From NCBI RefSeq assembly GCF_001431425.1, contig NZ_LDJG01000005.1:124001-188000 (forward strand): a stretch of 64,000 nucleotides of DNA, read 5' to 3'. The notes beneath the pieces were generated by a model that saw only the letters and a program-made list of their open reading frames with translations, had not been told where the DNA came from and searched no databases. Numbering within the stretch: the stretch's first letter is position 1; every line of letters starts with the position of its first letter. Position numbers and translations under genes: made by a program. Origin of the DNA: Stenotrophomonas nitritireducens. Its GTDB lineage: Bacteria > Pseudomonadota > Gammaproteobacteria > Xanthomonadales > Xanthomonadaceae. This document shows positions 27,458 through 31,704 of the stretch, one piece after another.

Positions 27458-28024
27458 TCACCGGGTTTCGGTCTTCTGCCGCAGCCAGTCGGCGCGGCCT
27501 GCGGCTGGCACGGCCAGCAGCTGGTCGCGCAGCGCGTCGCGCTCCTGCGGCGGCGTGCGCTGCGACAGCACGCCCAGTTGCGCCAGCTGCGCGGCATCGA
27601 GCTGGCGCAGCAGCGCCAGCATCGGCTCGCGCTGGTGTTCCGGCAGATAGCCCAGCAACGGCTGCAGCTTGGGGTACTGCGCGCCCAGCTGCGGGCCCAG
27701 CCGCCAGCCATCGCGATGCAGGCGGTCCAGACCGAGGAAACGGTCGCGCAGCGCCTCGCGCTCGGCCGCCGGCAGTGCCGCCATGTCGGCCGCGGCCCGG
27801 CGCACGCGCTGGCGCTCGGACTCGGGCAGCGCGCGCCACGCCGCATAGCGCGCGCGCAGTTCGCGCTGCTGGGCCGGCGCCAGCGCCGACCAGTGCGATC
27901 GCGGGTCCGGCATGGCACCGGCCGCGTGCGCGGCCGGCGGCGGCATGGCGGCGGGCATCGCCAGCGACGGTGCGGCCGGCAGCAGCACCAGCAATACCGG
28001 CAACAGGCGCTCAATCCTCCGCAT
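27458..28024 (-). CDS. DUF3106 domain protein (secreted)
   Basis: This 188-residue protein has a signal peptide (RIERLLPVLLVLLPAAPSLA). The mature region has the DUF3106 pattern of repeated short W/L/P helices: HWSALAPAQQRELRARYAAWRALPESERQRVRRAAADMAALPAAEREALRDRFLGLD. Function is unknown. Its start overlaps the end of the sigma-region-4-like gene by 14 bp, so the two are co-translated. In related genomes this domain is commonly encoded next to ECF-like regulators (family knowledge, not seen here directly). Confidence 0.82.
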   Translation of the reverse strand: MRRIERLLPVLLVLLPAAPSLAMPAAMPPPAAHAAGAMPDPRSHWSALAPAQQRELRARYAAWRALPESERQRVRRAAADMAALPAAEREALRDRFLGLDRLHRDGWRLGPQLGAQYPKLQPLLGYLPEHQREPMLALLRQLDAAQLAQLGVLSQRTPPQERDALRDQLLAVPAAGRADWLRQKTETR

Positions 28025-29021
28025 CGACCGTCTCCAGGGCGGTGCCGGCCGGTTCGGCGCGACCGGGGCGCGCCTGCGATTCGTCCACCGGCACCGGGCC
28101 GCCGGCCGCATACCAGGCGTGGAAATCGGCGTCCTGCGCCAGCGCCAGCTCCGGATCGGCCAGCATCGCCGCATCATCCGCGGCACGGCTGTCGCCGCTG
28201 GCAGGCGCGGCGGGAGGATCGTCGGCCGGCAAGGCCTCCACCTGCACCGGGCCATTGTCCGAAACCGCGCCCTCGGCGGCTGGCGCGGCCGCGCCGGGCA
28301 ACGCCGGCCGGTGCTCCTGCCACCACCAGGCCGCGACCACCGCAAGCAGCACCAGGGGCAGGCACAGCAGCAGCCAGGTCCGCCAGCGCCAGCGCGTTGC
28401 GGTACGGCGCGGCGGGCGGGCAACGCGGGCATCGGCTTCGATCCGTGGCGCCGCGGGCGCCTGGCGGGCCGGCGCGGCCCCGGCCGCCATCGCCCCGCGC
28501 AGCTGTTCCAGCTGCTGCACGCGGCCCGGCGGGAGATCGCGCACCTGCGCCTGCACCTGTTCGGCCAGCCCGCGCCATGCCGTCGCGTCCGGATGGCCCT
28601 GCGCGTCCAGCGGGCAGGCGCCAGCCAACGCATGCCGGTATGCCTCCGGCGTCACCCCGAGGACCGCCGAGGCGGCATCTTCATCCAGCCCGCCGCCGAT
28701 ACGCAGCAGCAGCGCCAGCCGCTCGGCCGGGGCCAGGTCCTGAAGATGGGCCAACGCGGGCGGCCAGTACCCGTTCGTGGATGGCGCCCGCATTTGCGGG
28801 TTGCCGCACAGCAGGGTCCAGAAACGGGCGGGCCAGTCGGCCATCGGCATGCCCGCGGCCGGGCCGGCGAAGGCGCGCATGGCAGCCGCCACGGCACGGC
28901 CGGCGGCATCCTCGTCGCCGCTCTGCAGGCCCGCGACGACCAGGGCGCGTCGTTCGACGCCTTTCAGGAAAGCGGACAGGGCACTGGCTGCGGCCGGTGT
29001 TGGAGAGGCGGGTGCAGCCAT
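28011..29021 (-). CDS. membrane-anchored protein with sigma-region-4-like helix-turn-helix
   Basis: Residues 92-133 of this 336-residue protein (HLQDLAPAERLALLLRIGGGLDEDAASAVLGVTPEAYRHAL) resemble region 4 of ECF sigma factors, where LP..R....L....G.s..EIA..LG.s...v...L is usual. The N-terminal 90 residues lack a recognisable region 2 (no core-binding or -10 motif). A proline/arginine-rich linker leads to one transmembrane helix (about 214-234) and an acidic, proline-rich C-terminal part that would lie in the periplasm. The ATG at 29021 is chosen; upstream residues in frame look non-coding. It is translationally coupled to the DUF3106 gene. Function unknown; the sigma resemblance is my inference from pattern. 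Confidence 0.7.
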   Translation of the reverse strand: MAAPASPTPAAASALSAFLKGVERRALVVAGLQSGDEDAAGRAVAAAMRAFAGPAAGMPMADWPARFWTLLCGNPQMRAPSTNGYWPPALAHLQDLAPAERLALLLRIGGGLDEDAASAVLGVTPEAYRHALAGACPLDAQGHPDATAWRGLAEQVQAQVRDLPPGRVQQLEQLRGAMAAGAAPARQAPAAPRIEADARVARPPRRTATRWRWRTWLLLCLPLVLLAVVAAWWWQEHRPALPGAAAPAAEGAVSDNGPVQVEALPADDPPAAPASGDSRAADDAAMLADPELALAQDADFHAWYAAGGPVPVDESQARPGRAEPAGTALETVDAED

Positions 29022-29508
29022 CAGTTGGACTCCTTCATCGCCGGGAATGATACCCAGCGCGTCGGGCCCCGCAGATAGTCCCGGCAGCCGGCCTGCACGC
29101 CGTCTTGACGCTCTCCCGGACGCTCCATGCCGCAACTTGTGCACAGCGTCAATAGCCTGCCTGCAATCGGCCGCGATTTCCGGCGGGCACCCATATTTCG
29201 CTTTTGTTTCACGAACAAGTTGTTGATTTTAAAAGACTTGATCGTATGGCTATTTTTTGACCAAGTTGAGGGAAAGGCTTCCACCACCGCCCTGGGCGCG
29301 TGGAGCACAACGCTGATGCACAGAGTTATCCACAAGTTGTGTGGATAAGCCCAAATCTCCAAGCCCGGCCTGCGTTTACGCGGTGTTTATGCTTCCGGCG
29401 CGAACAAGCGCACGCAAGTAGGCGGCATGCGGCGGACCGGTTTCCCGACCGGTTCCGGCGGCCCCCGGGGGGTGTGCCGGCCGGCGACCGGCACCTACAC
29501 TGCCGCCC
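29022..29508. other. AT-rich intergenic region upstream of priA
   Basis: This 487-bp region has no supported gene. By my count 29191-29270 holds 27 G/C in 80 bases (34%), against roughly two thirds G/C in the surroundings. It includes the palindrome AACAAGTTGTT (29214-29224) and runs such as ATTTTAAAAG and TATTTTTTGA. DnaA-box-like sites flank it and are listed separately. Confidence 0.85.
29314..29348. promoter_or_regulatory. DnaA-box cluster with an inverted perfect pair
   Basis: TTATCCACA (29326-29334) and its exact reverse complement TGTGGATAA (29340-29348) are consensus high-affinity DnaA boxes, separated by 5 bp. A one-mismatch box, TGATGCACA, precedes them at 29314-29322, and another, TTGTGCACA, lies at 29137-29145. 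They sit about 160 bp upstream of priA and immediately right of the AT-rich stretch. Binding is inferred from consensus. Confidence 0.75.
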
Positions 29509-31704
29509 ATGCCCACCTGCCCCACCCTGCGCATCGCACTGCCGGTCCCGTTGCCGCAGACCTTCGATTACCTGCCTCCGCCCGGCAGCCCGGACCCGGG
29601 CGCCGGCGATACCGGGCGCCGGGTCAGGGTTCCGTTCGGCAACCGCGAACTGGTCGGCATGGTCGAGAGCATCGGCACGGCGGACGACCCGGCGACGCTG
29701 CGGGAAGCCCTCCAGTGGCTGGACGGCCCGCCGCTGCTGGGCGGGGAGCTGCACGCCTCGCTGCGCTGGCTGGCGCGCTATACCCATGCGCCGCTGGGCG
29801 AGGTGATCGCCACCGCGCTGCCGGCGCCACTGCGCCGGGGCGACCCCCTGCCCGATACCCATGGCTGGGGCTGGGAGTTGACCGTGGCCGGTCACGAGGG
29901 CCGGTCACGGCTGCGCGATGGCACCCGCCCGCGACGCCTGGCCGAACTGCTGGGCGACGGCACTCTGGCCGAGGAGGTCCTGGCCGCACGCATGGACGGC
30001 TGGCGCGAGGCCGGCCGCGCCCTGCTCAAGCGCGGCTTCGCGCAGCGCGTGGCGATGGCGGCGGCGATCCCGGCGGCCCATCCGCTTCCCGGCCCCGAGC
30101 CGAACCCGCAGCAGCAGGTGGCGATCGAGGCGATCACCGCGGCCGACGGCTTCCAGCCCTTCCTGCTCGATGGCGTCACCGGCAGCGGCAAGACCGAGGT
30201 CTACCTGCAGGCCATCGCCCATTGCCTGGCGCAGGGCCGGCAGGCGCTGGTGCTGGTACCGGAGATCGGCCTGACCCCGCAGATGCTGGCGCGCTTCCGC
30301 GCCCGCCTTGGCATCGCGGTGCACGCGCTGCATTCGGGCCTGAACGACAACGAGCGCGCGCGGGTATGGGCGGCCGCTTCCCGCGGCGAAGCGCGGGTGA
30401 TCGTCGGCACCCGTTCGGCGGTGTTCACGCCGCTGCCGCAGGCCGGGCTGCTGATCGTCGACGAGGAGCACGACGGCAGCTACAAGCAGCAGGATGGCAT
30501 CCGCTACCACGCCCGCGATTTCGCCCTGGTGCGCGGCAAGGCGCTGGACATACCGGTGGTGCTGGGCAGCGCCACGCCCTCGCTGGAATCGCTGCACAAC
30601 GCGCGTGCCGGCCGCTACACCCACCTGCGCCTGCAGCAGCGCGCCGGCGACGCGCGGCCGCCGGCGGTGCGGGTGTTCGACGTGCGCAAGCGGCCGCTGC
30701 AGGACGGCCTGTCGCCGGAAGTGCTGGCGGGCATCGAACAGCACCTGCGCGCCGGCAACCAGGTGCTGGTGTTCAAGAACCGCCGCGGCTACGCGCCGGT
30801 GCTGCTGTGCCACGACTGCGGCTGGACCGCGCCGTGCCGGCGCTGCAGCACGCCGCTGCACGCCACGCCGATGACCGTGCACGGCGCCGGGCGCCGCCTG
30901 CAATGCCACCACTGCGGCGCGCGCGCGCCGGTGCCGCTGGCCTGCCCGGACTGCGGCAGCCTGGCGCTGCAGCCGCAGGGCATCGGCACGGAGCGGCTGG
31001 AAGAGCGGCTGCTGCAGCTGTTTCCCGATTTCCCGGTGCTGCGCATCGACCGCGGCACCACCGCGCGGCGCGACGCGCTGGAACAGACTCTGGCCGCGCT
31101 GGGCGAGCAGCCCGGCATCCTGGTCGGCACGCAGATCCTGGCCAAGGGCCACGACCTGCCGCGGCTGACCCTGGTGGTGGTGGTCGGTATCGACGAAGGC
31201 CTGTTCTCCGCCGACTTCCGCGCCAGCGAGAAGCTGGCCCAGCAGCTGATCCAGGTCGCCGGCCGCGCCGGCCGCGCCGACCGCCCCGGCGAGGTCTGGC
31301 TGCAGACTCATCACCCGGACAATGCGCTGCTGCACACCCTGGTCAACGGCGGCTACCACGCCTTCGCCGATGCCGAACTGGCGCAGCGCGAGGCCGCCGG
31401 CTTCCCGCCGTTCGCGCATCTGGCGCTGCTGCGTGCAGAAGCCAAGCAGGTCGAACAGGCGAATGAATTCCTGGCAGCGGTGAAGCACGCCATGCCCGCC
31501 GACAGCCCGGTCGAACGCTACGGCCCGATGCCCGCACCGATGCCGCGCCGCGCCGGCTTCCAGCGCACGCAGCTGCTGCTGTCGGCCACGCAGCGGCGTG
31601 CGCTGCACGGCCTGCTCGATGCGCTGGTGCCACAGATATACGCACTGCCGCAGGCGCGACGCGTGCGCTGGTCGCTGGACGTGGACCCGGTGGACCTCTA
31701 CTGA
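29509..31704 (+). CDS. priA: primosomal protein N' (replication restart helicase PriA)
   Basis: PriA recognises stalled forks and reloads the replicative helicase. The 731 residues contain the N-terminal 3'-DNA-binding domain, Walker A with K228 (GVTGSGKTEVY), the DEEH box (VDEEHDGSYKQQ), and the helicase-embedded zinc-binding cysteines in residues about 435-483 (CHDCGWTAPCRRC and CHHCGARAPVPLACPDCG). The second helicase lobe has GTERLEERL, GTQILAKGHD and QVAGRAGRA. The upstream region is unusual in carrying DnaA boxes. Confidence 0.97.
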   Translation: MPTCPTLRIALPVPLPQTFDYLPPPGSPDPGAGDTGRRVRVPFGNRELVGMVESIGTADDPATLREALQWLDGPPLLGGELHASLRWLARYTHAPLGEVIATALPAPLRRGDPLPDTHGWGWELTVAGHEGRSRLRDGTRPRRLAELLGDGTLAEEVLAARMDGWREAGRALLKRGFAQRVAMAAAIPAAHPLPGPEPNPQQQVAIEAITAADGFQPFLLDGVTGSGKTEVYLQAIAHCLAQGRQALVLVPEIGLTPQMLARFRARLGIAVHALHSGLNDNERARVWAAASRGEARVIVGTRSAVFTPLPQAGLLIVDEEHDGSYKQQDGIRYHARDFALVRGKALDIPVVLGSATPSLESLHNARAGRYTHLRLQQRAGDARPPAVRVFDVRKRPLQDGLSPEVLAGIEQHLRAGNQVLVFKNRRGYAPVLLCHDCGWTAPCRRCSTPLHATPMTVHGAGRRLQCHHCGARAPVPLACPDCGSLALQPQGIGTERLEERLLQLFPDFPVLRIDRGTTARRDALEQTLAALGEQPGILVGTQILAKGHDLPRLTLVVVVGIDEGLFSADFRASEKLAQQLIQVAGRAGRADRPGEVWLQTHHPDNALLHTLVNGGYHAFADAELAQREAAGFPPFAHLALLRAEAKQVEQANEFLAAVKHAMPADSPVERYGPMPAPMPRRAGFQRTQLLLSATQRRALHGLLDALVPQIYALPQARRVRWSLDVDPVDLY

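Follow-up and report, generated by a model that had tools for sequence, protein, structure and literature searches.

DnaA-reactivating sequences (DARS) are sites that bind ADP-DnaA in preference to ATP-DnaA and promote the release of its ADP, which raises the level of ATP-DnaA. They have been described in E. coli and its near relatives, as far as the relevant passages of the papers cited here go, and one sentence in a review places similar sequences in many proteobacterial species (PMC10380432). The DARS core is described as three DnaA boxes, with box I opposed to boxes II and III, and the spacing is identical in DARS1 and DARS2 (PMC5742627). DARS2 is placed upstream of mutH (PMC11317965), and DARS1 is reported to depend on a flanking DNA region in place of IHF and Fis (PMC5742627, PMC4245941).

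We investigated an element upstream of priA in Stenotrophomonas nitritireducens. The window (the whole stretch of 64,000 nucleotides that was analysed) is part of one contig of a draft genome of 3,983,487 bases in 95 contigs, whose best priA matches come from Stenotrophomonas; the element in the window is non-coding and intergenic, with a minus-strand gene on one side and priA on the other (Table 1). The element shares its layout with the E. coli DARS and recurs at priA in many gammaproteobacteria, which points to a probable switch for recharging DnaA rather than to a second origin. From its sequence, we consider it likely to be a DARS at which ADP-DnaA would be recharged with the help of IHF and Fis. 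A DARS is the best fit among the readings considered, better than the three options of the initial annotation (an oriC away from dnaA, a DnaA-titrating site or DnaA control of the restart helicase gene), which did not include DARS.

Table 1. Coordinates of the predicted features of the priA upstream element, numbered from the first letter of the window.
Feature	Position	Strand	Description
Outlying weak DnaA box	29137-29145	+	TTGTGCACA; one mismatch to TTWTNCACA
AT-rich stretch	29188-29267		33.75% GC; contains the IHF-like and Fis-like sites
IHF-like site	29216-29228	+	CAAGTTGTTGATT; one mismatch to TAAnnnnTTGATW; 85 bp beyond box III
Fis-like site	29248-29262		GGCTATTTTTTGACC; exact to GnnYAnnnnnTRnnC; 51 bp beyond box III
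DnaA box III	29314-29322	+	TGATGCACA; one mismatch to TTWTNCACA; 3 bp from box II
DnaA box II	29326-29334	+	TTATCCACA, perfect; 5 bp from box I
DnaA box I	29340-29348	-	TTATCCACA, perfect; opposed to boxes II and III
priA, replication restart helicase (primosomal protein N')	29509-31704	+	NF004067, 1033 bits, cut-off 763

The inverted pair of perfect DnaA boxes with 5-bp spacing to which the initial annotation had pointed was confirmed, as was its 80-bp stretch of about 34% GC. Its two further boxes are one-mismatch boxes with respect to TTWTNCACA, but they differ from TTATCCACA at two positions. Boxes I to III, read on the minus strand, make up the core (29314-29348), and the perfect pair, which lies 161-183 bp upstream of priA, accounts for the sole matches to TTATCCACA at up to one mismatch within the window. 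The number of boxes is not above chance, with two in the window versus 2.97 expected from shuffles. Across the 3,983,487 bp of the genome there are eight perfect boxes (two at the priA element, two between dnaA and dnaN and four single) versus 14 for a reversed control pattern. Unlike the number, the arrangement upstream of priA is far above chance: the 22 fixed bases of the core are expected at most 4.5e-7 times in the genome from base composition, and the core is unique in its own genome at up to three mismatches. The AT-rich stretch is the lowest-GC 80-mer nearby, the window holding two clusters of 80-mers that low, and the mean of the relatives has its AT peak at the same place. The outlying box was recognised by eye in many inspected xanthomonad sequences. 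A search of 28900-29600 against Rfam gave no match at the gathering score.

We compared the core with the DnaA sites of E. coli. In the MG1655 record, DARS1 reads TTATCCACT-5-TGTGGATAA-3-TGTGTATTA and DARS2 reads TTATTCACC-5-TGTGGATAG-3-TGTGAAGAA, and the minus strand of the window reads TTATCCACA-5-TGTGGATAA-3-TGTGCATCA. The I-N5-II-N3-III geometry is therefore the same in all three, and the window has the three-box arrangement of a DARS, with box I opposed to boxes II and III at 5 and 3 bp. Mismatches to the 22 fixed bases numbered none in the window, one in DARS1, three in DARS2, six in the datA region, eight in oriC-mioC, ten in the dnaA promoter region and seven in the genome's own dnaN-dnaA-rpmH region. 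Among background 1-kb pieces, a set in which the scored E. coli regions are included, 415 of 422 had 8-11 mismatches. DARS1, which we take to lie between bioD and uvrB, differs from the window element in its neighbour gene. Its region was present in 5,374 of 5,426 E. coli genomes by BLAST; a BLAST search with a 35-base composite, a query that was probably too short, gave no match in E. coli genomes.

At up to two mismatches, 195 of the 200 genomes searched in the order and 302 of the 370 in the class contained the core, and none contained the reversed control. We then took the priA upstream sequences of relatives, the comparison proposed in the initial annotation (77 of 80 loci and the window, three loci that were cut off before the gene start being excluded). 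The region proved to be conserved: 62 of the 78 sequences, including the window, contained the core at up to two mismatches and opposed to priA, and in 57 it was exact. The 16 sequences in which the core was not found came from Pseudomonas (three), Vibrio (four), Photobacterium (three), Marinobacterium, Marinimicrobium and four MAGs. The initial annotation was right to see a predicted DnaA-binding control element upstream of priA. A locus titled Bacillus subtilis SK7B5 (L028) carries a Stenotrophomonas-like priA (77% identity) and the xanthomonad box pair, and its assembly is probably mislabelled or contaminated, judging from these sequences. Two gammaproteobacterial MAGs (L078 and L085) have six or seven DnaA boxes at up to one mismatch in about 600 bp of AT-rich DNA upstream of priA, and box I of the core is absent from both.

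So that loci were not chosen by the core pattern, a second sample was built from priA. PriA was present in 350 of the 370 genomes of the class, and the sample comprised 110 genes from 63 families at the top of a list ranked by PriA domain score, the order of the window being represented by one genome (G020), in which the core lies about 3.3 kb from priA. The core was found upstream, at up to two mismatches and on the strand opposite to priA, at 46 of the 110 genes and in 30 of the 63 families, and in the other orientation at four genes. The 46 cores lie about 40-488 bp (median 123) from the start of the PriA domain or from an aligned-start point, the reference for 30 loci being a point 30 bp inside the aligned start. 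The remaining 64 sampled genes had no such core at up to two mismatches, and at the priA gene of E. coli no core was found (best fit, nine mismatches).

The spacing of the core was examined in the same 110 genes at up to two, three and four mismatches. The true spacing gave 46, 48 and 51 hits, respectively, and the opposite orientation gave 4, 19 and 43, the box pair being a palindrome. A gap of 4 or 6 bp between boxes I and II gave no hit at any threshold, a gap of 7 bp gave 0, 0 and 3, and a gap of 3 bp gave 0, 1 and 9. Altering the gap between boxes II and III gave 0, 10 and 29 hits (2 bp), 1, 31 and 42 hits (4 bp) and 27, 39 and 46 hits (5 bp). These results indicate that the I-II gap of 5 bp is sharply defined and that the II-III gap is less well resolved, the test fixing only four bases of box III.

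The core also occurs away from priA. Within the order, priA adjoined the core at 12 of 25 distinct loci fetched and did not adjoin it at the other 13; by genome, a priA-linked core was found in 12 of 20 among the loci fetched, some genomes giving two loci. At 35 of the 55 distinct loci fetched by pattern, no priA was found nearby. Counts within the order are inflated by kinship, and the class-level set spans 30 families. Flanking genes were named for a minority of the cores away from priA, and among those some adjoin genes of the RrnaAD, thymidine-kinase, PALP, patatin and gamma-glutamyltranspeptidase families. The idea that DARS sites mark DNA-repair genes (uvrB, mutH, priA and sbcB) was not sustained.

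To search for partner sites, we used the consensuses given by the authors of the DARS2 work, TAAnnnnTTGATW for IHF and GnnYAnnnnnTRnnC for Fis (PMC4245941); in the surveys the first IHF base was relaxed to C or T after the window had been seen, and the Fis consensus is a loose one. Of the 62 sequences, 51 had an IHF-like site at up to one mismatch no more than 150 bp away (mean of 9.2 and maximum of 17 in shuffles), and 49 placements fell at 85-86 bp, no shuffle having more than two at one position. The Fis consensus was matched exactly in 28 of the 62 (shuffles, mean 5.5, maximum 12), in 27 at exactly 51 bp, no shuffle having more than three at one position. Of the 46 class-level cores, 34 had an IHF-like site at 84-87 bp (on average 0.24 and at most 2 in shuffles; at most two in any other 4-bp bin) and 21 had the Fis consensus at 48-51 bp (at most one in any other bin). 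The 35 cores without a nearby priA had 20 IHF-like placements at 84-87 bp and 14 Fis placements at 51-52 bp. A co-shifted variant was found in five of these 35 cores, from two families (L154, L156, L176, L181 and L191), with IHF at 74-75 bp and Fis at 40 bp, both sites being about 11 bp, or about one helical turn, nearer to the core. Among all 163 cores there were 61 joint placements with an IHF-Fis offset of 34-35 bp. Two of the cores with the nearer sites, L176 and L181, are DARS-like and stand beside sbcB (exodeoxyribonuclease I) in one family of the order.

We compared these flanks with those of the E. coli elements. DARS2, in which the IHF sites were located here by consensus and not from the published figure, has an IHF-like site 74 bp from box III in the same orientation as that of the window at 85 bp, one helical turn apart. 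By consensus match, the window element resembles DARS2 in carrying an IHF site at a set distance from the core, on the side of box III. DARS2 differs in having a further IHF-like site, oppositely oriented, at 58 bp, in adjoining mutH instead of priA, and in its Fis-consensus site, which lies at 110 bp, beyond IHF, whereas that of the window lies between the core and IHF; no Fis site placed like FBS2-3 of DARS2 was found in the window element. Since the Fis consensus of DARS2 is at 110 and not 51 bp, the site at 51 bp in the window may be bound by another protein or may form part of the AT-rich IHF site. DARS1 has a degenerate IHF-like sequence at 86 bp (two mismatches, shuffle P 0.03), which is only suggestive, and unlike the window it has no Fis consensus near 51 bp.

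Published shift experiments on DARS2 bear on this spacing (PMC4245941). A shift of the IHF sites away from the core left them partially effective at 5 bp and moderately effective at 10 bp, and a shift towards the core left them only partially effective at either distance. Moving the Fis sites by 5 bp was considerably inhibitory, and moving them by 10 bp had a moderate effect. These tests fit helical phasing in part; that IHF moved 10 bp towards the core was no better than 5 bp is a misfit with simple phasing.

Some of these features would also suit a passive DnaA titration site or a datA-like inactivation site. The element has high-affinity boxes and an IHF-like site, and the outlying box at 29137 places that site between boxes, as in datA, which likewise consists of DnaA boxes and an IHF site in non-coding DNA. 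However, datA inactivates ATP-DnaA, and its region fits the core poorly, the core geometry being absent (6 of 22 bases mismatched), while titration does not need a fixed spacing of boxes, IHF and Fis. We therefore regard a titration or datA-like site as quite improbable. The conserved DARS geometry and the phased pair of IHF-like and Fis-like sites are left unexplained by titration and by control of priA alike.

We examined the surroundings of priA for promoter signals. A -10-like hexamer, TACACT, lies at 29496-29501 and ends 7 nt before the priA ATG, and copies resembling TACACT or TAGACT were seen by eye at the corresponding position in many inspected relatives. Because this hexamer is so close to the ATG, the priA mRNA may be nearly leaderless, as far as the sequence suggests. 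No sigma-70-like promoter was found in 29000-29540. The gene divergent from priA (28011-29021, minus strand) matches an RNA polymerase sigma factor only weakly, with a score below the cut-off, and is followed by a DUF3106 gene.

Both the window and S. maltophilia E301 (L022) have a neighbouring gene divergent from priA, as would be expected if the boxes stood by chance near an AT-rich divergent promoter. However, in Rhodanobacter spathiphylli and Dyella nitratireducens (L070 and L066) the nearest upstream long frame runs towards priA. The element is kept beside such co-directional neighbours as well, so its AT-rich part is more than a divergent promoter, and the proposal that it serves only as the promoter of the divergent gene was rejected. 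Chance placement, which the expected number of 22-base matches per genome also opposes, is refuted by the conservation, and we give it next to no credence.

A DnaA operator of priA, at which DnaA, IHF and Fis would tune priA transcription to the replication cycle with a geometry suited to binding and not to ADP release, has more in its favour. The core stands in one orientation at the 46 priA genes of the sample, at 42 of which its distance from the PriA domain or aligned start is about 40-166 bp, and so tight a link could reflect a part played in expressing priA, whether in addition to DnaA recharging or in its place. E. coli DnaA is also reported to prefer paired boxes 2-3 bp apart, at target genes as elsewhere (PMC11317965). 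Against this, the core also occurs at the 35 loci where no priA was found nearby, with 20 IHF-like placements at 84-87 bp among them, DARS1 and DARS2 carry the same core at other genes, and in the window the core lies about 150 bp upstream of the TACACT hexamer, which is far for simple repression. We consider the operator alone to be unlikely. A combination that overlaps the DARS reading, in which DARS activity is coupled to the transcription of priA or priA is itself tuned by DnaA occupancy, is conceivable but less than probable. It is favoured by the priA linkage in 30 of the 63 sampled families and by the precedent that read-through transcription is described as removing IHF from datA (PMC10950094), and it is weakened by the 64 sampled priA genes without the core.

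We investigated the position of the element relative to dnaA, in view of the proposal of the initial annotation that it might be an oriC away from dnaA; on that reading, the AT-rich stretch would serve for unwinding. The boxes do adjoin AT-rich DNA, but the IHF-like and Fis-like sites already account for that part. The other perfect box pair of the genome lies between dnaA and dnaN, on another contig, and this own oriC region likewise has its two perfect boxes beside AT-rich DNA; unlike the element, it has no DARS core (seven mismatches). In S. maltophilia E301, 821 kb separate the priA core from dnaA (19% of the contig, compared with 20.6% of the chromosome between DARS2 and oriC); the corresponding distances are about 0.58 Mb for Stenotrophomonas sp. 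SY1 and about 0.75 Mb for Dyella nitratireducens. A further 12 genomes of the order have core and dnaA on the same contig, at separations of about 58 kb (G013) to about 0.9 Mb, in rounded sizes, the core being confirmed at priA for G013 and G061 only. Left out of these separations were G011, whose core is not at priA, and G047, G054 and G148, in which core and dnaA are on different contigs.

The GC-skew check that had been suggested for an origin was run on S. maltophilia E301. In 20 sampled stretches, the skew was positive between 0.01 and 1.55 Mb and negative between 1.77 and 4.19 Mb, indicating that it switches near dnaA (4.255 Mb) and at about 1.65 Mb and not at the element (3.434 Mb). The element thus lies neither beside dnaA nor at a GC-skew switch, and, as a DARS does, it lies in non-coding DNA outside oriC and distant from it. 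An origin away from dnaA was rejected on the box pair between dnaA and dnaN, the distance in the three relatives and the skew, and we consider it very unlikely indeed. In Stenotrophomonas sp. SY1 (G003, L012), 22 of 40 perfect DnaA boxes fall within 78 kb around dnaA (C1:24-102 kb, dnaA at 56.7 kb). Origin-proximal enrichment of DnaA boxes has likewise been reported in E. coli (PMC12371093).

The partner proteins of a DARS are encoded in the genome: IhfA, IhfB (both NCBIfam, over cut-off) and Fis (over cut-off), the last being 49% identical to E. coli Fis over residues 22-97. In an alignment, DnaA keeps D269, R281, R285, L290 and R334, and a Q is aligned with R227, a residue described as important for DARS2 (PMC4245941). 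Of the two residues counted as needed for the DARS2 reaction, L290 is thus kept and R227 is not. From the DARS mechanism as presented in passages of PMC5742627, PMC4245941 and PMC8682772, ADP-DnaA would bind boxes I-III, and the opposed molecules on boxes I and II would make a head-to-head AAA+ contact that loosens ADP. IHF, about 85 bp away, would bend the DNA, and Fis, about 51 bp away, would help the bent arm to act on the DnaA complex. Apo-DnaA would then depart, take up the more abundant ATP and be able to fire oriC located elsewhere. Binding by DnaA, IHF and Fis, the release of ADP and an effect on initiation timing are what we infer for the element.

Our literature searches found no paper joining DARS, DnaA and priA, though an earlier listing in the founding DARS study is possible. 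They found none on a DnaA-reactivating sequence in Xanthomonas and none on DnaA boxes upstream of priA, and among papers on Xanthomonas or Stenotrophomonas none, judged by title, dealt with such an element. We tentatively suggest, as a possibility that is not the likeliest, that the core module (with Fis-like and IHF-like sites at 51 and 85 bp, or with the pair shifted about 11 bp towards the core) is a gammaproteobacterial DARS of long standing, perhaps the ancestral one, that was inherited or moved as a unit, that DARS1 and DARS2 are its relocated and altered descendants, and that its place at priA couples recharging to PriA-dependent restart. If the element is a DARS, it raises the question of why DnaA recharging should be tied to priA in so many families. 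Its module geometry would allow DARS to be located in genomes without recourse to experiments, and a class-wide module whose sites are fixed and apparently helically phased would offer a testable geometry for ADP release driven by IHF and Fis.
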